Shown here piece after piece: positions 23,738-42,963 of a stretch of DNA of 64,000 nt. The notes under the pieces are model-generated. The model saw nothing but the letters and a program-made list of their open reading frames with translations, had not been told where the DNA came from and searched no databases. How positions within the stretch are numbered: position 1 is the stretch's first letter; the number at the start of each line of letters is the position of its first letter. The position numbers were made by a program, and so were the translations under genes. The stretch spans positions 558,001 to 622,000 of the forward strand of contig NZ_FMYZ01000003.1 in assembly GCF_900101625.1 (NCBI RefSeq). The letters run 5' to 3'. The DNA is from Cupriavidus sp. YR651 (lineage in GTDB: Bacteria; Pseudomonadota; Gammaproteobacteria; Burkholderiales; Burkholderiaceae).

Positions 23738-24700
23738 ATGACCAGCGCGATGAGGGATATCGACGAGCGCACCAACCTTACCAACAACAACCAGTTCGAG
23801 CTGTTGTTGTTCCGACTTGGCGACGCGGCAAACAGCGGACAGTCCGAGCTGTTCGGCATCAACGTATTCAAGGTCCGGGAAATCCTGGTCATGCCGTCGG
23901 TGACGACGGTGGTGGGCGCGGGGTTGTCCATCCTGGGCATGGCCGACATTCGCGGCCAGGTGATTCCCGTCATCGACCTGCCGCGCCTGCTGGAATGCAA
24001 GCCCACGTCCGGGCTGAACATCATGCTGGTCACGGAATATGCGCGGTCCACACAGGGCTTCGCGGTGGAAGCGGTGGAAGAGATCGTGCGCCTGGACTGG
24101 AGCCAGGTGATCTCCGCCGAGACCAGCGTCAAGGGCGGGCTGGTGACCAGCATCGCCAAGCTTGACGTCGGCGGCGACAATCCGCGCCTGGTGCAGGTGC
24201 TGGATGTGGAGCAGATCCTGCGCGACGTGCTGCCCACGCGCCAGCCGGATGTCGACCCGGCTACCGTGGGTCCGGCGCTGAACCTCCGCCCCGGCACCAA
24301 GGTGCTGGCCGCCGACGATTCCGCGCTGGCGCGTGGCCTGATCGAAAACGGCCTGAAGGCGATGGGCGTGCAGGTGGTCATGACCAAGACCGGGCAGGAG
24401 GCCTGGGAGATGCTCGGCAGCATCGCCGACCAGGCGGCCAGCCACGGCAAGACCGTGCGCGACGAAATCGCGCTGGTGCTGACCGACCTGGAAATGCCCG
24501 AGATGGATGGCTTCACGCTGACGCGCAAGATCAAGGCGGATGCGCGGCTGAAGTCGCTGCCCGTGGTCATTCACTCGTCGCTGTCGGGCGAGGCGAGCGA
24601 GGAGCACGTGCGCAAGGTCGGTGCCGATGCGTATGTGTCGAAGTTCCTCGCCAAGGACCTGGCGGAGACGATCCGCGGGGTGCTGGCGCGACATCCGTAA
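23738..24700 (+). CDS. cheV: Chemotaxis coupling protein CheV
   Basis: The 320-residue cytosolic protein joins a CheW-like domain (about residues 17-165) to a response-regulator receiver domain (about 187-318). The phosphorylation site is Asp250 (VLTDLEMPEMDG), with acidic residues at ADD (192-194), a conserved HSS switch and a Lys near VSKFLAK. It couples receptors to CheA and may act as a phosphate sink. The ATG at 23738 follows GCGGAGCACAGC. It is transcribed alone from the sigma-28 promoter upstream. Confidence 0.95.
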   Translation: MTSAMRDIDERTNLTNNNQFELLLFRLGDAANSGQSELFGINVFKVREILVMPSVTTVVGAGLSILGMADIRGQVIPVIDLPRLLECKPTSGLNIMLVTEYARSTQGFAVEAVEEIVRLDWSQVISAETSVKGGLVTSIAKLDVGGDNPRLVQVLDVEQILRDVLPTRQPDVDPATVGPALNLRPGTKVLAADDSALARGLIENGLKAMGVQVVMTKTGQEAWEMLGSIADQAASHGKTVRDEIALVLTDLEMPEMDGFTLTRKIKADARLKSLPVVIHSSLSGEASEEHVRKVGADAYVSKFLAKDLAETIRGVLARHP

Positions 24701-33710: not shown

Positions 33711-34580
33711 ATGACCACGCTGGACACCCCCATCCGCCCCGAATACGAGCTGGCGCTCGAACCGTTCACCGCCGTCCCGCTGTCCCGGCCGCTGCCGTGG
33801 CATCGCCGGCTATGGCAGCAGGGCTGGTTGCGCAAGACCGTGATCCTGCTGGCGCTGGCGGTGATCTGGGAAGTCGTTGCGCGCATCCAGGATAACGACC
33901 TGCTGCTGCCGACGTTTCTGGCCACCGCGCGGGCTTTCGCGGAGGGCGTCGCCAGCGGCGAGCTGCCGGGCAAGGCCGCGGTGTCGCTGTCGATCCTGCT
34001 GCAGGGCTATCTGGCCGGCATTGCGCTGGCATTCGCGCTGACCACGCTGGCGGTGTCCACGCGCATCGGGCGCGATGTGCTGGATACGCTCACCGCCATG
34101 TTCAACCCGCTGCCGGCCATCGCGTTGTTGCCGCTGGCGCTGCTGTGGTTCGGCCTGGGCAGCAAGAGCCTGATTTTCGTGCTAATCCATTCGGTGCTGT
34201 GGCCGCTGGCCCTCAACGCCTATGCCGGCTTCCGGGGCGTGCCGGAGACCCTGCGCATGGCGGGCCGCAACTACGGGCTGCGTGGGCTGCGTTTTGTGGT
34301 GCTGATCCTGGTGCCCGCCGCGCTGCCCGCGATCCTGTCCGGGCTCAAGATCGGCTGGGCCTTTGCATGGCGCACGCTGATCGCAGCCGAGCTGGTGTTC
34401 GGCGCATCGTCGGGCAAGGGGGGACTCGGCTGGTACATCTTCCAGAATCGCAATGAGCTCTACACCGACCGCGTCTTCGCCGGGCTGGCCACCGTGATCC
34501 TGATCGGACTGGCGGTGGAGGGGCTGGTGTTTTCCACGCTGGAGCGTTTGACGGTACGCCGCTGGGGCATGCAACACTGA
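33711..34580 (+). CDS. ABC transporter permease (TauC/SsuC-like)
   Basis: The 289-residue inner-membrane permease has about six spans and the EAA-loop region NYGLRGLRFVVLILVPAALPAILSGL that docks on the ATPase. It resembles sulfonate/taurine and nitrate permeases of the BPD family. It lies 21 nt after the ATPase stop and completes the transporter. A palindromic mosaic repeat begins at the very next base after its stop codon. Confidence 0.94.
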   Translation: MTTLDTPIRPEYELALEPFTAVPLSRPLPWHRRLWQQGWLRKTVILLALAVIWEVVARIQDNDLLLPTFLATARAFAEGVASGELPGKAAVSLSILLQGYLAGIALAFALTTLAVSTRIGRDVLDTLTAMFNPLPAIALLPLALLWFGLGSKSLIFVLIHSVLWPLALNAYAGFRGVPETLRMAGRNYGLRGLRFVVLILVPAALPAILSGLKIGWAFAWRTLIAAELVFGASSGKGGLGWYIFQNRNELYTDRVFAGLATVILIGLAVEGLVFSTLERLTVRRWGMQH

Positions 34581-34786
34581 GAGGCACTATAAAAATGATT
34601 CTGGCGTCGTTGCCGGGTTTTGCCACACTCGCTTGCCGTACCACTTGTATGGTGTCTGCGGCCGCGCCCTTGCAGGGCGCGCATGCGCCAGCAGGCGCAT
34701 GCCGCTACGCAGGCGGATCGCGTGCGATCCGAAACCCCTGCTTCGCCCTAGCCAGAACCGCTGGCGCTTCATTTTTATAGCGCCTC
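34581..34786 (+). repeat. Palindromic mosaic repeat, copy 1 (long form)
   Basis: A 206-bp element bounded by near-perfect inverted termini GAGGCNCTATAAAAATGA (17 of 18 match). It contains a conserved core (CTGGCGTCGTTGC, then TACCACTTGTA, then CTAGCCAG), module A (TTTGCCACACTCGC) and module B of about 80 bp. Module B has three hairpins: 34666-34678, 34681-34702 and 34714-34731. It begins immediately after the permease stop codon. Related copies are at 37041, 39686 and 41814. Confidence 0.9.
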
Positions 34787-34967
34787 TAAGCGATACGATC
34801 AAAGCGATTCATCCTGCGGCAAGTACGCGGCTTGCCCGAGCACCGGGGGCGGAGTAAGGTACGTCTCCGGCATCGCAGCGCACGGCCGGGAAACGTCTGG
34901 ACAAACACGGCACGGCCTGCCTGGCCGCCATTTCGTTTGCGTCCCCAACCATTCCCGACTCGCGCCC

Positions 34968-35738
34968 ATGACCGCCATCCACCACGCCGCCGCCCAGGGC
35001 TTCTCCGCCCAGGCCGATGCCTACGCCCGCGGGCGTCCCGACTATCCTGCCGGACTTGCCGACTGGCTCCGCGACACGCTGGGGCTCGCGCCCGGCAAGA
35101 CCGTTGTCGACCTCGGCGCCGGCACCGGCAAGTTCACCCCGTTACTGCTGCCTTCGGGCGCCACGGTCATCGCCGTCGAGCCCGTCGCGCAGATGCGCGC
35201 GCAGCTTACGTCGAAACTGCCGACCGTGACGGCGCTGGAAGGCAGCGCGGAGTCGATGCCGCTGCCCGATGGCAGCGTCGACGCCGTGGTGTGCGCACAG
35301 GCCTTTCACTGGTTTGCCAACACGGCCGCCATGCGCGAGATCCGTCGCGTGCTGCGCCCCGGCGGCAAGCTCGGGCTGGTGTGGAATGTCCGCGACGAGT
35401 CGGTCGGCTGGGTGGCGAAGCTCACGCAGATCATGACCCCGTTCGAGGGCGATGCCCCGCGTTTCTACCGGGGTGACTGGAAGAAGGTGTTTCCCGCGGA
35501 AGGCTTTGGTCCGCTCGGCCTGACGCGCATGCCCTACACGCACAGCGGCCCGCCGGAGCAGGTGGTGGTGGACCGCGTGATGTCGGTGAGTTTTATCGCG
35601 TCGTTGCCGGCGGCGAAGCAGGACGCCGTGCGTGCGCAGTTGCGCGAGGTGATCGCCACCGATCCGGCGCTGCAGGGGCGGGATGAGGTGGCGTTCCCGT
35701 ACAGCACCGAAGCGTACTGCTGCGAACGGCGCGCCTGA
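34968..35738 (+). CDS. Class I SAM-dependent methyltransferase
   Basis: The 256-residue cytosolic protein has the SAM-binding motif I VVDLGAGTGKF (about residues 46-56), an acidic post-I loop AVEPVAQM and the motif PLPDGSVDAVVCAQAFHWF, typical of Methyltransf_11 proteins (UbiE/YcgJ-like group). The methyl acceptor is unknown. It is a single gene, 180 nt after repeat copy 1 and convergent with the MFS gene. The ATG at 34968 was chosen as the only start that keeps the N-terminal FSAQADAYARGRPDYP block. Confidence 0.88.
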   Translation: MTAIHHAAAQGFSAQADAYARGRPDYPAGLADWLRDTLGLAPGKTVVDLGAGTGKFTPLLLPSGATVIAVEPVAQMRAQLTSKLPTVTALEGSAESMPLPDGSVDAVVCAQAFHWFANTAAMREIRRVLRPGGKLGLVWNVRDESVGWVAKLTQIMTPFEGDAPRFYRGDWKKVFPAEGFGPLGLTRMPYTHSGPPEQVVVDRVMSVSFIASLPAAKQDAVRAQLREVIATDPALQGRDEVAFPYSTEAYCCERRA

Positions 35739-35768
35739 GGCGAACGACGCGAACGACGCGACTGACGC

Positions 35769-36995
35769 CTAGCGGGCCGGCACCAGTTGCTGCCGGTAGC
35801 GCGCGGCCAGCCACTGGCTGAAGCCGAGCGCAAGCAGCGCCGCCACGGCGGCGCACAGGAACACCGACGCATAGCCGGCCTGCTTGGCCACCAGACCGGC
35901 CAGCGGACCGGTCAGGCCGAGCGCCACGTCGAGGAACAGCGCGTAGGCGCCGAGCGCGGAGCCGCGATTGGTCAGCGGCACGCGCTTGACGGCCTCCATG
36001 CCGAGCGCCGGGAATACCAGCGCGAAGCCAAAGCCCACCACGCCCGCGCCCACCAGCGCCTGCCACGGTGCCTGCGCCAGCCACAGGATCGCCAGGCCGG
36101 CCGCTTCCACCGCGAATGACACCAGGGCCACCGGATAGCCACCAAAGCGGCCGATGCTGTCGGCCATGACCAGCCGCGCCAGCACAAAGCAAGTGCCGAG
36201 CGCCGTCAGCGCCAGCGCCGCATGGTCCCAGCCATGGCTGCCGTAGTAGAGCGTGATAAATGCCGTGATGACGCCGAAGCCGACCGAACCCAGCGCCAGG
36301 CACAGACCGAATGGCATCACCGCGCGGAATACGCGGCGGAAGGGCAGGCGTTCGCCCTTGAGGATCGGCACGGGCGCCTTGCGACGCGCCAGCAGCAGCG
36401 CGACGCAGGCCGTCACCATCGTCACCACGCCGATCGATGCCAGACCGCCGTGCCGGGCCAGCACCACGCCCACCGGTGCGCCGAGCGCCAGCGCACCATA
36501 GGTGGTGATGCCGTTCCACGAAATCACCTTGGCCGTGTGGCGCGCACCCGCGCTGCCGATGCCCCACGCGATGGTGCCGGTGGTGACCAGGCTCTCGCCG
36601 GCGCCCAGCATCAGGCGCGCCGCCAGCAGCCAGCCCAGCCCTAGCCAGTCGGTGCCCGCGAACAGCGCGGCCACCAGCGTCAGCACGCCGCTACCCGTGC
36701 ACAGCGCCAGCCCGGTCAGCACGGACCGCTTGGGCCCCTGCGTGTCGCAGAGCGTGCCCGCCCACGGGCGGCTCATCAGCGTGGCCAGGTACTGGATGCT
36801 GACCGCCAGCCCGGCGACGACGGCGCTGTAGCCCAGGTCGCCGTGGACGAAGCCCGGTACGACGGCGATCGGCAAGCCCACCGCCAGATAGGCGATGAAG
36901 TTGAAGAAGACGACGGAAAGGATGCGGCGGTTCAGTGTGCCGGGGGCGGAATCGCCATGCGGCGGCATATCCAGGGCGGAAGTCGGGGCGGTCAT
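35769..36995 (-). CDS. MFS transporter, YfcJ/YhhS-like
   Basis: The 408-residue inner-membrane protein has twelve hydrophobic segments. The N-terminal VVFFNFIAYLAVGLPIAVVPG and the MSRPWAGTLCDTQGPKR loop are typical of the YhhS/YfcJ arabinose-efflux-like group. The transported substrate is unknown. The gene is divergent from the IclR regulator at 37402, with repeat copy 2 lying between them, so IclR control is plausible. Start is the ATG at 36995. Confidence 0.86.
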   Translation of the reverse strand: MTAPTSALDMPPHGDSAPGTLNRRILSVVFFNFIAYLAVGLPIAVVPGFVHGDLGYSAVVAGLAVSIQYLATLMSRPWAGTLCDTQGPKRSVLTGLALCTGSGVLTLVAALFAGTDWLGLGWLLAARLMLGAGESLVTTGTIAWGIGSAGARHTAKVISWNGITTYGALALGAPVGVVLARHGGLASIGVVTMVTACVALLLARRKAPVPILKGERLPFRRVFRAVMPFGLCLALGSVGFGVITAFITLYYGSHGWDHAALALTALGTCFVLARLVMADSIGRFGGYPVALVSFAVEAAGLAILWLAQAPWQALVGAGVVGFGFALVFPALGMEAVKRVPLTNRGSALGAYALFLDVALGLTGPLAGLVAKQAGYASVFLCAAVAALLALGFSQWLAARYRQQLVPAR

Positions 36996-37040
36996 GCGGG
37001 GCGGTCGTTCGGATTGGGGCGTCAGGCCCGGGTCTGGTGC

Positions 37041-37232
37041 AGAGGTTGCTTAAAAATGATCCTGGCGTCGTTGCGCGGCCTGGTCGTACCACTTGTACTG
37101 CCTGCGGCCGCGCCCTTGCAGGGCGCGCATGCGCTGGCAGGCGCATGCCGCTACGCAGGCGGATCGCGTGCGATCCGAAACCCCTGCTTCGCCCTAGCCA
37201 GGACCGCTTCGCTTCATTTTGAAGCAACCTCT
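37041..37232 (+). repeat. Palindromic mosaic repeat, copy 2 (long form)
   Basis: A 192-bp element with inverted termini AGAGGTTGCTTNAAAATGA. It has the conserved core and module B (hairpins beginning at 37112), but lacks module A. Its terminal sequence differs from that of copy 1, yet the two ends match each other. It lies in the MFS-IclR divergent region. Confidence 0.9.
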
Positions 37233-37401
37233 TAGGGAAAACCCGGAAGCAGGGATCATACCGGGATTGCGTCGATCTCGCCGCTGACGTGCCGGACGCG
37301 CCCGCGAGACCGCTTTTGGCCGATTGACAAGCCATGTGGCGTTCTATACGGTGGACGCCCGTTCCGACCAGCCCTCCACGGCGGGGGCCACCCCTCTCCC
37401 T

Positions 37402-38181
37402 ATGCCACGCAAAGCCGCCCAACTTTCCGAAGCCGACAAGCATTCCGCCGAGGGCGGCGCCGTGGCCGTGGATCGGGCGCTGTACGTGCTGTCGGCGTTC
37501 CGCGAGGGCGACGCCACGCTGAGCCTGGCCGAGCTGGCGCAACGCAGCGGGCTCTACAAGAGCACCTTGCTGCGCTTGCTGGCATCGCTGGAGCATGCGC
37601 GGCTGGTGCAGCGGCTGGCCGATGGCCGTTACGGGCTGGGGTCCGAGGTGGCACGCCTGAATGCGGTCTATGCCGCATCGTTCTCGCTGGAGCAGGTGGT
37701 GATGCCGGCGCTGCGCGAGCTGGTGCGCGTCACGCGGGAATCCGCGGCGTTCCACGTCGAGCAGGGCGAACACCGGCTCTGCCTGTATCGCGTGGATTCC
37801 CCGCAGCCCGTGCGCGACCACATCCGCGCGGGCGATCTGCTGCCGCGTCATCGCGGATCGGGCGGGCGCGTGCTGCGGGCATTCTCGGGGGCGCGCGGCG
37901 AGATCTACCAGCGCATTCGCGACGAGGGCGTGATCGCGCTGGTCGGCGATCGCAGCCCCGATATCGCGGGGGTCTCTTCGCCGGTGTTCGGCCCGGCCGG
38001 GGAATTGAAGGGCGCCTTGACGCTGACGTGCCCCACGCCGCGGTTCTCGGAAGCCTTCCGCGATCAGGTGCTCGATGCGGCCAGGGCGCTGACGCGCGCG
38101 CTGGGCGGCACATTCCCGGACGTGGTGCCGGCGGGCACGTCGTCCCCGGGCAGCCAGATGGCGGAGCCTGAGGAGGACTGA
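37402..38181 (+). CDS. IclR-family transcriptional regulator
   Basis: The 259-residue protein has an N-terminal winged helix (about residues 20-80, LSLAELAQRSGLYKSTLLRLLASLE) and a GAF-like IclR effector domain (about 95-245, HVEQGEHRLCLYRVDS, then LPRHRGSGGRVLRAF). It probably controls the divergent MFS transporter and possibly itself. The ATG at 37402 lacks an obvious ribosome-binding site; a TTG at 37324 in the same frame is an alternative start adding 26 residues without homology. Confidence 0.9.
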   Translation: MPRKAAQLSEADKHSAEGGAVAVDRALYVLSAFREGDATLSLAELAQRSGLYKSTLLRLLASLEHARLVQRLADGRYGLGSEVARLNAVYAASFSLEQVVMPALRELVRVTRESAAFHVEQGEHRLCLYRVDSPQPVRDHIRAGDLLPRHRGSGGRVLRAFSGARGEIYQRIRDEGVIALVGDRSPDIAGVSSPVFGPAGELKGALTLTCPTPRFSEAFRDQVLDAARALTRALGGTFPDVVPAGTSSPGSQMAEPEED

Positions 38182-38297
38182 ACCGGCCGGGATTCTCCCG
38201 ATTCGGGCCAGCCAGTTTTCGCCGCAAATTCAGAGCGTTGTGCCCACGCTAACCCGGCTTGTCGGGGGTGCCCCGGCGTAGAAGGCGCGGGCTATCA

Positions 38298-38348
38298 TGC
38301 GGCTTTCTTGCCGCATATTCCCGGCATCCAGACCCGTTAAGGGTTAAC
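38298..38348 (+). other. Hairpin and palindrome between IclR and diguanylate cyclase genes
   Basis: TGCGGC-TTTCTT-GCCGCA (38298-38315) can fold as a small stem, a possible end of the iclR transcript. GTTAAGGGTTAAC (38336-38348) is a short palindrome about 40 nt before the next gene and could be an operator. Neither resembles a known site that I can name. Confidence 0.4.
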
Positions 38349-38387
38349 CGCAATAACGGTAGCCGCCCCCGGTCACTTGAGAGGATT

Positions 38388-39638
38388 TTGATTCCCTTGC
38401 ACCTGGCCCCGCAGACCATTCTGGTCGTCATGATGGTGGTGTTCTCCAGCACGCTGGTCATGGCGGCGGGGCTTGTGCTCGCGCTTCGCAGGAGCGAGGC
38501 CGGGCGGCTGTGGGCATCGGGGCACGTCATCGCCTCCGGCGCGGGGCTGGTGGTGGCGGCCAGCGCGGGTGCCGACTCCCTGCCACTGATCGCGCTGGGC
38601 GCCGGCGCCTATGTCATCGGCCGCCTGGCCATCTACCGTGGCGTGCGGGTCTACTACGGCTTGCCGGAGTACGCCGCGACACTGCGCGGCATCGGCCTGC
38701 TGGTGCTGGCGCTGCTCTTGCTCATGACCGGCCTGTCCAATGGTCGTCAGCTCATTTCCGCCGTGGCGTACAGCGTGCTGGCCGTGGCGTCGCTCAGCAC
38801 CATCGTCACGATGTTGCGCGGCGTGCGTGGGCGTACCAGCATCGGTGGTCCGCTGGTGCTGGCCTCGCACCTCGTGCTGCTGGCCTCGCAGGTGGTGACG
38901 CTGACCTATGTGGCAACGCCGAAAGGGATACCCGGCGTGCCGGTGTTCGTGCAGGCCAGTGGCTCGGTCTGGCCGCTGGCGCCGCTGATTGCCGTGCTGC
39001 TGGGTTTGTTCGGTTTCAGCCTGATGGCGATGGAGCAGATCATCGCCCGCAACGAGAGCGGGGCGCGCCTGGATGCGCTGACCGGCCTGCTCAACCGCGG
39101 GGCGCTGGACATGACCGCCGTCGGCATGGTGGCCCGCTGGCAACGCGACGGCGAAGCGCTGTCCTGCCTGGTCATCGACGTCGATCACTTCAAGCTTGTC
39201 AACGATACCCACGGCCATCATGCGGGGGACAACGTGTTGCGGGAGATCGCCACCGCGCTGGACAATTCGCGTCGCGCCTCGGATATCGCCGCACGCTACG
39301 GCGGCGAGGAATTCTGCATCCTGTGTCCCCACACGGACGAGCATCAGGCCACGGCGCTGGCCAACCGGATCCTGCGCAAGGTGCGCGCCATCGAACTGCC
39401 GGGCAACGGCGGCTACGCCAGCGTGAGCATCGGCGTGGCGCAACTACGCGGCGCGCCCACCAGTCGTGAAGGCCTGTGGCGCAATCTGTTTGCCGATGCC
39501 GATCGCGCGCTCTATACCGCCAAGCAGCGCGGCCGGGATCAATACGTGCTGGGCTCCAGCATGTTGCCCGTGGTGGCGGAGGACGCCGCATCGGAGGCGC
39601 CGGCGCAGGCGGACCTGGACTGCGCGACGCCGGCTTGA
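38388..39638 (+). CDS. Membrane-bound diguanylate cyclase (GGDEF)
   Basis: The protein is about 416 residues if started at the TTG at 38388 (AGAGG just upstream); the first in-frame ATG is 38430. The N-terminal half has about seven hydrophobic segments, a likely sensory membrane domain. The C-terminal GGDEF domain (about residues 225-390) has the active site GGEEF. An RASD inhibitory site lies five residues before it, so it should make c-di-GMP with product feedback. The lack of an ATG start is unusual and the true start is uncertain. It may influence the Pel system, whose genes lie about 14 kb away. Confidence 0.88.
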   Translation: MIPLHLAPQTILVVMMVVFSSTLVMAAGLVLALRRSEAGRLWASGHVIASGAGLVVAASAGADSLPLIALGAGAYVIGRLAIYRGVRVYYGLPEYAATLRGIGLLVLALLLLMTGLSNGRQLISAVAYSVLAVASLSTIVTMLRGVRGRTSIGGPLVLASHLVLLASQVVTLTYVATPKGIPGVPVFVQASGSVWPLAPLIAVLLGLFGFSLMAMEQIIARNESGARLDALTGLLNRGALDMTAVGMVARWQRDGEALSCLVIDVDHFKLVNDTHGHHAGDNVLREIATALDNSRRASDIAARYGGEEFCILCPHTDEHQATALANRILRKVRAIELPGNGGYASVSIGVAQLRGAPTSREGLWRNLFADADRALYTAKQRGRDQYVLGSSMLPVVAEDAASEAPAQADLDCATPA

Positions 39639-39685
39639 TGGCCGCAATGTTGAAACGTCCAGCGCCAACCGGCGGGCGCGCCTTG

Positions 39686-39797
39686 GAGGTTGTTTCAAAA
39701 TGAAGCGAAGCGGTCCTGGCTAGGCGTGCGGCCGCAGACAGTACAAGTGGTACGGCCAGGCCGCGCAACGACGCCAGGATCTTTTTGAAACGACCTC
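39686..39797 (-). repeat. Palindromic mosaic repeat, copy 3 (short form)
   Basis: A 112-bp element in inverted orientation with ends GAGGTNGTTTCAAAA. It has only the conserved core and lacks both modules A and B. It ends at the stop codon of the HutC-type gene: the G of its TAG is the first base of the repeat's GAGG terminus. Confidence 0.9.
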
Positions 39798-40519
39798 TAG
39801 CCCAGTGCTCCCCCGAACCTGTATCGCTTGCCCGGATGCCATAGCACCACGAGGGAAGCCACCGCGTCGCGGGAGAACGTGCGCCGGCGCAGCACCAGCG
39901 CGGGCTCTTCCTCGCCGATGCCAAGCATCTCGGCCACCTCGGCCGTCGGCAGTTGTGCCTCGATCTGGTACTCCACGCGCTGCAGCGGCGCCACGCGCAT
40001 CAGGTGTTCATTCGGCGTGACCGCGCCGAAATCCAGCTCCATATAGCCCGGCGCCAGCGCCGGGTTGACCCAGCGGTCTTCCACCTGGATCGGCGTGTCG
40101 TTCTCGTAGTGCAGGATCAGCGAATGGAACAGGGTGCTGCGCTCGGTCACGTCGAACTGCGTGGCCAGCAGCCGCGTGGCGCGCTGGCGTTCCAGCCGGA
40201 ACAACGCGCTGCGATGCCGATGGCCGCGCGCGCGAATCTCTTCCGCGATGCTGCGGATTTCCACCACCGTGGCCTGGTAGCGTTGCTGCGCCACGAACGT
40301 CCCCGCGCCCTTGCGCCGCACGAGCACCTGCTCGGCCTCCAGCTCATTCAGGGCGCGATTCACCGTCATGCGCGACACGCCGAACTCGGCCGCCAGCCTG
40401 AGTTCCGGCGGAATCGCATCGCCTTCCTGCCAAGTGCCGGCCTCGATCTGTCCCTGCACATAGTTCTTGATGCGCTGGAACGCAGGCGTCGGATCGGGCG
40501 ACGGTTGGGCTGAGGGCAT
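39797..40519 (-). CDS. GntR-family regulator, HutC subfamily
   Basis: The 240-residue protein has a GntR winged helix (about residues 10-75, PPELRLAAEFGVSRMTVNRALNEL split) and a UTRA effector domain (about 90-235, DTPIQVEDRWVNPALAPGY, then LRRRTFSRDAVASLVVLWHPG). It resembles histidine-utilisation repressors, but no hut genes are in the window. It is divergent from a Bug-OCD-PhnD-like run, and two GTCTATACA repeats in the shared region are candidate operators. The ATG at 40519 lies just upstream of the helix-turn-helix domain. Confidence 0.9.
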   Translation of the reverse strand: MPSAQPSPDPTPAFQRIKNYVQGQIEAGTWQEGDAIPPELRLAAEFGVSRMTVNRALNELEAEQVLVRRKGAGTFVAQQRYQATVVEIRSIAEEIRARGHRHRSALFRLERQRATRLLATQFDVTERSTLFHSLILHYENDTPIQVEDRWVNPALAPGYMELDFGAVTPNEHLMRVAPLQRVEYQIEAQLPTAEVAEMLGIGEEEPALVLRRRTFSRDAVASLVVLWHPGKRYRFGGALG

Positions 40520-40701
40520 GCAGGCTCCTGGCGGGCGGATCGTCAGTGTCGATGGGAAAAATGCGAAGGGCGTACGCGGGCCGCTTCGGTGCAATGCGAT
40601 CCACGCCTCGCACGGCAGGGCACCCGTGTGGTGCTGCGCCGCACCATCCGCGTGCGGCTCCGCATCTTATGCGGAAATCGCTTTTCCATCTGCGAAAAGT
40701 T

Positions 40702-40744
40702 GTCTATACAGTAACAGGCGGCGTCGCTAAGATCAGTCTATACA
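40702..40744 (+). promoter_or_regulatory. Paired GTCTATACA candidate operators
   Basis: GTCTATACA occurs at 40702-40710 and again at 40736-40744, starts 34 bp apart. Each resembles half to most of a HutC-type operator (TGTATATACA-like). The intergenic region 40520-40823 holds no gene, so these are the best candidates for control by the divergent GntR/HutC protein. Confidence 0.55.
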
Positions 40745-40823
40745 AGCCAGCCGTGAAGACAAGTGCGCAATGCCGGTCGCGTGGCTGGCATCCAGATCCA
40801 GGCATCAAACCGGGGAGCCCGAA

Positions 40824-41813
40824 GTGAGTCGTCTCGTCTGCAAGCTGGCGTCGGCGTTGCTGTTGCCGCTAGCCGCCCTGTCATGGTCCGCGCGCGTTGC
40901 CGCGCAGTCGGACGCCTATCCCAACAAGCCGGTGCGGATCATCGTGCCGTTTGCCGCTGGCGGTGTGGCCGATGCGCTGCCGCGACTCGTGGGCCAGAAG
41001 CTGTCGGAGAAGTGGGGCAGGTCGGTCGTGGTCGACAACAAGCCCGGCGCGGCCGGCAACATCGGCATGGAGGCCGTCGCCCGCTCGGCCCCGGACGGCT
41101 ACACGCTGGGCCTGGCGCCGGCCGGCAACCTGACCGTCAACCCGATCCTGTTTCCCAAACTCAACTACGACACGCGCGATTTCGTGCCCGTGACGATGCT
41201 GGCCGCATCGCCGAATGTGCTGGTGGTGAATCCCGCGGTGCGTGCGCACTCCCTGAAGGAACTGGTGGCCTACGCCAAGGGGCATCCCGGCGAGCTGAAT
41301 TTCGCGTCGCCCGGCAATGGCAGTGGCGCCCATCTGGCGGGTGAACTGCTGAACCTGGAGGCCGGCATCAAGACCGTGCACGTGCCTTACAACGGCATGG
41401 CCACGGCGTTGAACGATGTGCTGGCCGGCCAGGTGCAGATGATGTTCGGCGGCATTTCCACGGTGCTGCAGCACATCCGCACCGGCAAGCTGGTGCCGCT
41501 GGCCGTGGCGGGCCCGCGCCGGCTGCCGCAGTTGCCGAACGTGCCGACGGTGGCGGAATCCGGCTATCCCGGCTTTGACGTGACGTCGTGGTACGGGCTG
41601 GTGGCGCCAAAGGGCACGCCAGACGCCATCGTGCAGAAGTGGCAGGCCGACGTGGCCACGGTGTTGCGGCAGCCGGACGTGCGCGAAAAGCTCGACGGCC
41701 TGGGCCTCGAGCCCGTGGGCAACAGCGCGCAGGCCTTCGGCGCGACGATCGCCAGCGAAACCACCAAATGGCGCGCGATCGTGCACCGCGCCAACATCCC
41801 CCCGCTGCAGTGA
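40824..41813 (+). CDS. Bug-family (TctC-like) periplasmic solute-binding protein
   Basis: The 329-residue protein is secreted (signal peptide about residues 1-28, cleaved near VAAQ) and has the Bug core: YPNKPVRIIVPFAAGGVADAL, DNKPGAAGNIGMEAVARS and VPYNGMATALNDVLAGQV. Such proteins bind carboxylates, amino acids or similar small anions and often work with TctAB, which is absent here. The GTG at 40824 is preferred because GGGGAG lies about 7 nt upstream and it yields a proper signal peptide. Repeat copy 4 starts at the base after its stop codon. Confidence 0.9.
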   Translation: MSRLVCKLASALLLPLAALSWSARVAAQSDAYPNKPVRIIVPFAAGGVADALPRLVGQKLSEKWGRSVVVDNKPGAAGNIGMEAVARSAPDGYTLGLAPAGNLTVNPILFPKLNYDTRDFVPVTMLAASPNVLVVNPAVRAHSLKELVAYAKGHPGELNFASPGNGSGAHLAGELLNLEAGIKTVHVPYNGMATALNDVLAGQVQMMFGGISTVLQHIRTGKLVPLAVAGPRRLPQLPNVPTVAESGYPGFDVTSWYGLVAPKGTPDAIVQKWQADVATVLRQPDVREKLDGLGLEPVGNSAQAFGATIASETTKWRAIVHRANIPPLQ

Positions 41814-41941
41814 GAGGGGCCGCTTAAAAAAAGATCCTGGCGTCGTTGCCGCATTTGCCACACTCGCTGGTCGTACCACTTGTACTGTCTGCGGCCACGC
41901 GTCTAGCCAGAACCGCTGGCGCTTCATGTTGATAGCGCCTC
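41814..41941 (+). repeat. Palindromic mosaic repeat, copy 4 (intermediate form)
   Basis: A 128-bp element with the conserved core and module A but without module B. Its two ends do not match each other well (GAGGGGCCGCTTAAAA versus GAGGCGCTATCAACAT), unlike the other three copies. It begins directly after the Bug stop codon and ends just before the ribosome-binding site of the next gene, so it sits inside a probable operon. Confidence 0.88.
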
Positions 41942-41958
41942 TAAGGAAGGAGACCCCC

Positions 41959-42963
41959 GTGAAAGAGTTGTACCTGACCTACCTGAATGGCCCCGATGTC
42001 GCGGCGCTGGCGTTGACCGATGCCGAGATTCTCGCGGCCGTGGAACAGGCGCTGGCCGCGCAGGGCCGCCGCGAGACCGTGATCGAGCCGCGCGTGCACC
42101 TGGTGCCGGAATCGTCGGACAAGGGCCATTTCAACGTGCTGCGCGGGTTCATCAAGCCGCTGCACGTGGCCGGCGTGAAGGTGGTCTCCGATTACGTCGA
42201 CAACTACAAGCAGGGCCTGCCTTCCGAGATGGCGCTGCTGAACCTGTTCGATCCCGACAACGGCGTGCCGCTGGCCGTGATCGATGCCACCGCGATCACC
42301 GACATGCGCACGGGCGCGGTCACCGCGCTCGGCGCGAAGCATCTGGCGCGCAAGGGCAGCAAGATCCTCGGGCACGTGGGCGCGCGCGGCACCTCGTACT
42401 GGAATGTGCGGCTGCTGGATTCGCTGTTCGATTTCGACGAGATCCGCGTGCATTCGCGCCGGCCCGAGAGCCGCGACGCCTTTGCCGCACGGCTGACGCG
42501 CGACCTGGGCAAGCCGGTAATCGTCACCGACGACTGGGAATCGTGCGTGCGGGGCGCGGATATCGTCGTGGAGGCGTCGCGCCTGCCCAAGCCCACGCCG
42601 ATGCTGCTGACCGAGTGGATCAAGCCGGGCGCGCTGGTGATTCCCTACGGGACGATGAGCGCCGTGGAACTGTCGCTCACGGACATCATGAGCAAGATGG
42701 TGGTGGATGACTGGGGCCAGTGCCGCAAGGGCCTGCCGTTTGGCGCGCTGCGCCAGCATGTGGACAGCGGGCGGCTGAACGAAGAGAACCTGCACGCGGA
42801 ACTCGGCCAGATCGTGGCGGGCAGCAAGCCGGGGCGCGAGCGCGATGACGAGACGATCCTGTTCTGGCACCGTGGCTTGTCGACCACCGACATCGCCCTG
42901 GGCCATGCCATGCTGACCAAGGCGCGCGCGATGGGCCTGGGCCAGACCTTGCGTTTCGCCTGA
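41959..42963 (+). CDS. Ornithine cyclodeaminase / mu-crystallin family protein
   Basis: The 334-residue cytosolic protein has the OCD-family layout: an N-terminal substrate part (GFIKPLHVAGVKVVSDY, DNYKQGLPSEMALLNLFD) and a Rossmann NAD(P) domain (GHVGARGTSYWNVRLL at about residue 137). Such enzymes deaminate ornithine to proline, or reduce or oxidise imino acids; the substrate here is not known. The GTG at 41959 has AAGGAG 6 nt upstream, downstream of repeat copy 4. It is linked to the Bug gene and the PhnD-like gene, suggesting uptake and conversion of one amino-acid-like compound (inference). Confidence 0.87.
   Translation: MKELYLTYLNGPDVAALALTDAEILAAVEQALAAQGRRETVIEPRVHLVPESSDKGHFNVLRGFIKPLHVAGVKVVSDYVDNYKQGLPSEMALLNLFDPDNGVPLAVIDATAITDMRTGAVTALGAKHLARKGSKILGHVGARGTSYWNVRLLDSLFDFDEIRVHSRRPESRDAFAARLTRDLGKPVIVTDDWESCVRGADIVVEASRLPKPTPMLLTEWIKPGALVIPYGTMSAVELSLTDIMSKMVVDDWGQCRKGLPFGALRQHVDSGRLNEENLHAELGQIVAGSKPGRERDDETILFWHRGLSTTDIALGHAMLTKARAMGLGQTLRFA

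Follow-up and report, generated by a model that had tools for sequence, protein, structure and literature searches.

Correia elements (CREE/NEMIS) influence gene expression in gonococci and meningococci, and their 50-bp module contains an IHF site. In an ordinary miniature inverted-repeat transposable element (MITE), the ends are conserved and the middle is filler. PMC10969869 names Correia elements as the first prokaryotic MITE described, in 1988. They occur in a long and a short form, the difference being an internal module (PMC2649163 and PMC2229807), their RNA has been reported as a substrate of RNase III, and their mobilising mechanism is given as undetermined as of 2009 (PMC2649163). A 2016 paper calls them "unique to the Neisseria spp." (PMC5039591). 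Here we describe elements with the same core in Cupriavidus sp. YR651. The window, i.e., the whole stretch of DNA that was analysed, comprises 64,000 nucleotides (assembly GCF_900101625.1, contig NZ_FMYZ01000003.1, positions 558,001–622,000 of the forward strand) and contains four copies, which a preliminary description had presented as a modular palindromic repeat family with two internal modules, A and B.

Several other repeats are comparable. Repetitive extragenic palindromic (REP) sequences, BIME, and CGTC-tagged REPs are likewise extragenic palindromes, often near stop codons; they are, in contrast, shorter, carry a terminal tag, and have no inverted ends with a duplicated target. ERIC/RU-1, YPAL/RU-2, and BOX, compared by description and without alignment, are small and structured as well, and some of them contain internal modules; they belong to other hosts (PMC2229807 and general knowledge).

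The Cupriavidus elements are very probably non-autonomous IS5-type DNA transposons, i.e., MITEs, which carry a Correia core as a passenger and whose copies recombine with each other. This interpretation is built on direct observations of their anatomy, copy number, target duplication, empty sites, stem covariation, the core shared with CREE, and the class of partner insertion sequences (ISs).

Core shared with Correia elements

The shortest copies (A−B−) were 112 bp long. Their outer stem spans about 19 bp and is followed inward by a CTGGC/GCCAG stem, an internal loop, the inner stem (GCGCGGCC/GGCCGCGC), and, at the tip, the apical hairpin. The apical motif of the core, CTTGCCGTAC-N-GTACTGTCTGCG, lies within covarying stems and is flanked by a GCGTTG-like segment on the left and CGCCTWG on the right. 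The same motif, with GCGTTG on the left, CGCCTTG on the right, and long inverted ends, is found in CREE, whose short form is 105–107 bp long. By sequence, the core of the Cupriavidus element is the core of the Correia element. Model R1, built without any Neisseria sequence, aligned end to end with a gonococcal CREE (positions 1–112, E = 1.6e-14), which was its sole full-length match in 30 kb chosen around that CREE (locus L405; loci are numbered L and genomes G). When a Neisseria bergeri CREE was used as a query against a plasmid collection, it matched solely two Neisseria and two Cupriavidus records, the latter with E = 1e-4. PLSDB lists as plasmids two gonococcal records (NZ_CP119140.1 and NZ_CP119142.1) that, at 2.17 Mb, are chromosome-sized. 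Neisseria loci found by their core, among them L318, L289, L329, L338, L341, and L295, were Correia elements with TATAGTGGATTAA ends.

Outside the core, the two kinds of elements differ. Correia elements have their own ends (TATAGTGGATTAA...) and a TA target, whereas those of Cupriavidus end in GAGG... and have a 3-bp target. As in the Cupriavidus elements, the long CREE form carries an internal module to the left of the apical hairpin, but this 50-bp module, located between GCCTT and CGTAC, is unlike the module A of about 19 bp in sequence, and no module B was seen in CREE. Thus, core sequence and fold are those of Correia elements, while the TATAGTGGATTAA ends, the TA target, and the 50-bp module are absent. 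The suggestion that no described element has such a structure consequently does not hold for the core, which is known from Correia elements with their long and short forms. For module B, and for the combination of this core with IS5-type ends outside Neisseria, our literature searches of one open-access library revealed no earlier description. A search of the literature with fragments of the core sequence listed 103 papers, and the 20 of these judged by title appeared unrelated.

Copy number and recombination of modules

Searches of the 6.96-Mb genome (46 contigs) with patterns and BLAST revealed at least 69 copies; reversed-pattern controls gave none, and a chance origin can be excluded. This number is a lower bound, since the intact copy L139 escaped the patterns and several deletion derivatives were present besides. 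Modules and ends were typed in 65 copies with both ends; four copies cut at the 3′ side were excluded. All four module states were present (A−B− 37, A−B+ 12, A+B+ 11, and A+B− 5 copies), so the family has no single fixed architecture. Module A, sized initially at about 15 bp, is not a plain insertion: it is a segment of about 19 bp that substitutes for GCGGCC, which in A− copies belongs to the inner stem, on its 5′ arm. Module B, a series of stacked hairpins previously sized at about 80 bp, was exactly 83 bp long in every B+ copy except L053 (92 bp). The independent assortment proposed for the two modules was not confirmed: A and B were associated (Fisher odds ratio 6.8, p = 0.0023).

The proposed reshuffling of parts, on the other hand, was borne out. 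Left and right end types were tightly coupled (alike in 62 of 65 copies, p = 7e-13), yet each of the eight possible combinations of end type, module A, and module B was represented. Three of the 65 copies were chimeras joining two end types, and two of these were A+B−, including copy 4 of the window. Copy 4, in which two end subtypes are joined, shows that the parts recombine.

Module A was seen in no examined locus outside Cupriavidus sp. YR651; these loci included 40 copies from elsewhere in the genus. Module B was found outside this genome on the megaplasmid of C. metallidurans CH34, where the relative of the copy 2 module (89.5% identity) occurs at four places, and in genome G040 (L192). 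Between L192 and the module B of L172 (genome G017), both from other species, compensated hairpin changes were noticed by eye (GCATGCGC/GCGCATGC vs. GCATGTGC/GCACGTGC). Near ends-only derivatives forming palindromes of 27–48 bp (L138, L144, L145, and L148) and several single arms were also present in the YR651 genome, as was a head-to-tail pair of A+B+ copies with 3-bp spacing (L042, approximately 1523–1960). Three locus pairs initially considered orthologous, with a module changed in place (L167/L058, L171/L065, and L182/L034), were in fact separate insertions or element-free sites.

Target duplication, empty sites, and partner insertion sequences

All four window elements were bounded by GAGG...CCTC, with sizes of 112–206 bp. 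The flanks of the 65 copies followed TNR on the left and YNR on the right. Among 25 pairs of left and right flank positions, only −2/+2 matched above expectation (41 vs. 25.3; 0 of 2000 permutations), and whole flanking 3-mers were equal in 11 copies (5.7 expected, p = 0.016). Elsewhere in the order, two sets of 26 and 19 loci were examined, and the flanking 3-mers were identical in 9 and 6 of them, respectively. Clean duplications in the larger set included TGA/TGA, TAA/TAA, and TTA/TTA. One copy belongs to both sets (L203 = L348), and one locus (L290) is from Cupriavidus.

Empty orthologous sites were found in relatives for copies 1, 2, and 4, the three compared. Copy 1 was absent in six relatives (a seventh fetched region was unalignable) and copy 2 in all four fetched. 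At copy 4, the occupied site reads CAGTGA–element–TAAGGA. The empty site reads CTGCAGTAA in five of six relatives, followed by GGA in four and by AGGA in one, and CTGCAGTAG in the sixth. The target of copy 4 was most likely TAA, the left duplicate having since changed to TGA. Within the genus, the core 18-mer (at most one mismatch) was present in 31 of 60 genomes and absent from 29, with 0 to 60 matches per genome; the reversed 18-mer gave three matches in two genomes. The elements are thus short, multicopy, and non-coding (coding capacity was judged from size and structure), have terminal inverted repeats and a target duplication with degenerate outer bases, and are polymorphic for insertion. 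Together with the class of partner IS, this supports the MITE half of the original "MITE- or REP-like" assignment and not the REP half.

ISs with matching ends were found in related bacteria. Genome G152 contains an 875-bp IS with GAGTCGCTAACACC ends and TAA flanks, whose transposase belongs to the IS5 family (NF033580, E = 1.9e-68) and has relatives in 15 of 399 genomes of the order (E ≤ 1e-30). The IS ends were GAGCGGCTAACAAAACC at L254 (flanks TAA/TAA) and L255, close variants of it at L251–L253, GAGGCGGTTTCAAAAAG at L259 (flanks TAA/TAA; same family as YR651), and GAGCGCATTTCAAAATGA at L260. Flanking triplets read at nine IS loci were equal in six (L249, L253, L254, L255, L259, and L260) and unequal in three (L251, L252, and L257). 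These ends resemble the two commonest element ends, which are GAGGTYGTTTCAAAA-like in Cupriavidus and GAGCSGCTAACAAAACC-like in the other families shown, and three genomes (G133, G152, and G307) contain both such an IS and the element. IS5-family ISs and the elements thus share near-identical ends of 15–18 bp (GAGGCGGTTTCAAAAAG; GAGCSGCTAACAAAACC) and a target duplication that is mostly TAA/TTA; unlike the element, the IS has its own transposase gene. We take the partner ISs to be IS1031-like.

Stop codons and orientation

With open reading frames (ORFs) of at least 100 codons considered, 46 of the 65 copies adjoined a stop codon (41 on the left and 9 on the right, including 4 on both sides) and 19 adjoined none; the control value was 1.3–2.3%. 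The copies were mostly in sense orientation to the stop-adjoining gene (41:9, p = 5.6e-6). Elsewhere, the ratio was 13:2 in the 26 loci (p = 0.007) and 7:2 in the 19 loci (p = 0.18, not significant alone). None of 14 Neisseria elements tested, seven of them with TATAGTGG ends, adjoined a stop codon. One insertion was found behind the same ORF, which looks like that of dihydrolipoamide acetyltransferase as judged by eye from the protein end, in five Cupriavidus genomes (L084, L176, L183, L186, and L195). Its stem had changed in place in compensated pairs (AAG/CTT, AAA/TTT, and AAC/GTT) and was paired at this position in four genomes; the fifth (G033) had an unpaired base there.

Covariation and folding

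Two-sided changes were found at 17 of 32 predicted pairs among 41 copies from the genus and Eleftheria. Two further sets were compared: 37 copies across the order collected with model R1 (A2) and 51 cores from named genomes collected with the motif as the search pattern (A3). In A2, 31 of 37 pairs had two-sided changes and 93.4% of cells were paired, a value reached by none of 500 shuffles (slid controls 31–44%). In A3, 89.6% of cells were paired, again with none of 500 shuffles as high (slid controls 24–42%). The apical motif was near-invariant in A2 while the inner and outer stems varied; R1 itself contains the motif, and in A3 the invariance is trivial, the motif having been the search pattern. 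A-C mismatches in the stems were about as frequent as G-U (20 and 26 in A3, 28 and 25 in A2, respectively, with one fixed G-U pair excluded). Predicted folding was strong for L168 and copies 1 and 2 (z about −6) and for copy 3 (z = −4.1); copy 4 folded no better than shuffles (z = −0.37).

Distribution of the core and its changing ends

The core pattern matched at least 109 stretches in 84,980 species genomes, with about 0.15 random matches expected by our own estimate (22 fixed bases, five gap lengths). Among the 80 matches listed, 74 were betaproteobacterial by title, including Neisseria, Aquitalea, Chromobacterium, Janthinobacterium, Acidovorax, Accumulibacter, and Methylotenera; the other six were from Avibacterium, a gammaproteobacterial metagenome-assembled genome (MAG), Streptococcus, and three Clostridia-type MAGs. 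The element at the Avibacterium paragallinarum locus (Pasteurellaceae, L303) carries the Correia core and has a TATAGTCGTTTAAG-like end. A tandem of three cores, about 106 bp apart, was seen in Silvimonas terrae (L284, 1838–2078).

Within the order, 80 of 399 genomes, representing 43 of 158 genera, contained the element as detected with R1 (at most nine candidates were scored per genome). Besides the two IS5-type ends, the core in named genomes lies between TATAGTCGTTTCAATTTAG, TTCCATTTCC, GGACTTGCGCAAAACC, CCATTCCTGGCTGCA, GCGGGCCTGAGAAAATGCC, GGCGAGATAGCCCCTCAG, and others; these non-IS5 ends were taken from the best flanking palindrome and are approximate. Across the class, a second model, R2, matched 26 of 369 genomes (23 of 272 genera); three of the matched genomes are from the same order, and four (G650, G651, G666, and G818) had 8 to 12 matches each. 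Among 20 class loci fetched, two had the exact motif and 15 had the same segment order by eye, mostly with a changed apical stem; three stretches missed the match. We treat these loci as candidates. Two of the loci from other families (L389 in G818 and L400 in G650) are multicopy and have a GYGTTG-stem-CTTG...stem-CGCCTTG architecture.

Elements in the window

The four elements were confirmed at the places and with the module states described earlier, apart from adjusted ends of copy 2 and the assignment of copy 3 to the minus strand (Table 1). Model R2 matched copy 1 at 34594–34685 (E = 2.6e-4). The last base pair of copy 3 contributes to the TAG stop of the adjoining ORF (39797–40594, minus strand). 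A weak R2 match elsewhere in the window (24417–24466, minus strand, E = 0.5) is probably due to chance.

Table 1. Positions of the four elements, their modules, and their flanks in the window.
Feature	Position	Strand	Description
Copy 1	34581–34786	+	A+B+, C-type ends GAGGCACTATAAAAATGA / TCATTTTTATAGCGCCTC
Copy 1, left target flank	34578–34580	+	TGA, stop codon of upstream ORF 33711–34580
Copy 1, module A	34614–34632	+	CGGGTTTTGCCACACTCGC, replaces GCGGCC of A− copies
Copy 1, core	34632–34665	+	CTTGCCGTACCACTTGTATGGTGTCTGCGGCCGC
Copy 1, module B	34666–34748	+	83 bp, stacked hairpins
Copy 1, right flank	34787–34789	+	TAA
Copy 2	37042–37231	+	A−B+, T-type ends, between two divergent ORFs
Copy 2, module B	37112–37194	+	83 bp
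Copy 3	39686–39797	−	A−B−, minimal 112-bp form
Copy 4	41814–41941	+	A+B−, chimera, left end T-type, right end C-type
Copy 4, left target flank	41811–41813	+	TGA, stop codon of ORF 40770–41813
Copy 4, module A	41850–41868	+	about 19 bp
Copy 4, right flank	41942–41944	+	TAA

Discussion

If the elements are MITEs with a Correia passenger, their mobilisation in trans would involve an IS5-type transposase that cuts at the GAG... ends, inserts the element at a TNA-like trinucleotide, and duplicates 3 bp. The passenger between the ends is the Correia core, with the apical motif on the inner stem and all of it within the long outer stem; its sequence is conserved, and changes in the stems are compensated pair by pair. 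Recombination or conversion among copies would yield the mixed A/B types, copy 4 being one such product. Insertions probably persist chiefly after stop codons and in sense orientation. We propose that they are tolerated there because TNA includes TAA and TGA, and the first G of the element can complete TAG, so that the neighbouring frame still ends. At the 3′ end of the mRNA, the hairpin would be expected to function in RNA processing or stability, by analogy with the RNA of CREE/NEMIS, which has been reported to be a substrate of RNase III.

Several observations weigh against this interpretation or its parts. The duplications are not clean, with TNR on one side, YNR on the other, and equal 3-mers in a minority of copies. 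Several ISs with the right ends come from genomes in which no element was detected (G157, G295, G178, and G190). A matching IS was not found in YR651 with PF13586 and one IS5 protein, other transposase families being unsearched: PF13586 gave two hits, the IS5 protein one match (E ≤ 1e-30) overlapping one of them, and neither had such ends; a resident parent IS of the PF13586 kind was rejected. Sixteen further end-like places in this genome included no end pair at IS distance (1.2–3 kb read). As to the Correia relationship, R1 met the long 155-bp CREE in L405 over 22 nt only (E = 0.014), L405 itself had been picked by a CREE match, and loci collected with the core pattern were chosen by motif, so their later model scores are not independent. 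Two of five covariation measures in A3 fell within shuffles (two-sided pairs in 213 of 500, further pair types in 84 of 500). Selection specific to one RNA strand is not indicated by the near-equal G-U and A-C mismatches and was rejected. A consensus scan of 34000–42500 yielded ten terminator-like sites, compared with 4.7 (sd 2.2) in shuffled sequence. Three of the ten are within copies 1 and 4 (34748–34765 and 41906–41920), which is weak support for a terminator role, and we do not adopt it.

The outer stems might instead be complementary through copying of one arm from the other during replication (template switching), with the pairing itself unselected, a possibility to be taken seriously although we do not favour it. 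It would account for compensated changes even inside one orthologous insertion, for the balance of G-U and A-C mismatches, for the ends-only palindromes, and for the first flanking bases, which were A-T in 24 and G-C in 12 of the 65 copies (36 vs. 30.6 expected). However, the apical motif is nearly fixed although the inner and outer stems change, and recognition of both ends by a transposase predicts the same outer-stem pattern.

Somewhat less probable still, and in our opinion rather unlikely, is that the core is a cis-acting RNA or processing site kept for the host, stabilising, processing, or terminating transcripts, with mobility merely spreading it. The sense orientation beside stop codons, the five-genome insertion with its compensated stem changes in place, and the strong predicted folding of L168 and copies 1–3 are consistent with such a function. 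Against it stand the patchy occurrence of the core 18-mer in the genus, the lack of a G-U excess on either strand, the folding of copy 4, and the lack of an Rfam match at the gathering score. Membership in an Rfam family was rejected: the window had no match, and L168 had just three sub-threshold matches up to E = 10.

That the likeness to Correia elements reflects convergence or a short common binding motif rather than common descent is very improbable. Ends, target, and base composition do differ, and BLAST aligns only about 53 bp (83% identity, E = 1e-4), but over their full length the two share both the order of the conserved segments and the paired stems, and the global alignment to CREE had z = 7.95, a score reached by none of 5000 shuffles.

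Finally, that the elements are of the REP type and owe their movement to a RAYT or another IS200/IS605 transposase can be dismissed almost entirely: CGTC is present in the core (GGCGTCGTTGC), and extragenic palindromes beside stop codons are given as typical for REPs in PMC3733652, which reports a CGTC-tagged class from 'C. taiwanensis' (genus abbreviated), but CGTC-REPs have stems of 8–9 bp with AT first pairs, loops of 4–5 nt, and a terminal tag, whereas the motif of the Cupriavidus elements is internal and their stem is different, the GTAG tag was not seen at the element ends (RAYT genes were not searched), and a duplicated target with IS5-type ends does not fit an HUH transposase.

With a mobile, IS5-mobilised carrier of the Correia core as the preferred explanation, a wider proposal has about an even chance of being right: Correia elements would be one branch of a large superfamily with a constant structured core of about 46–80 nt and exchangeable ends borrowed from available ISs, a hyperparasite whose ends, on this proposal, would include the IS5-type GAG, TATAG, TTCCATTTCC, GGACTTGCGCAAAACC, and others. 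The matches in other Gammaproteobacteria, with an apical stem that is changed and still paired, suggest that it extends past Betaproteobacteria. A core that outlives changes of transposase would have to be recognised by something common to the hosts. Since the core survives under different ends, its likely partner is a host factor and not any single transposase. The combination of a conserved core with exchanged ends is the reverse of an ordinary MITE, and a superfamily with identifiable IS partners would make it testable which transposases move Correia elements and what the conserved core does.

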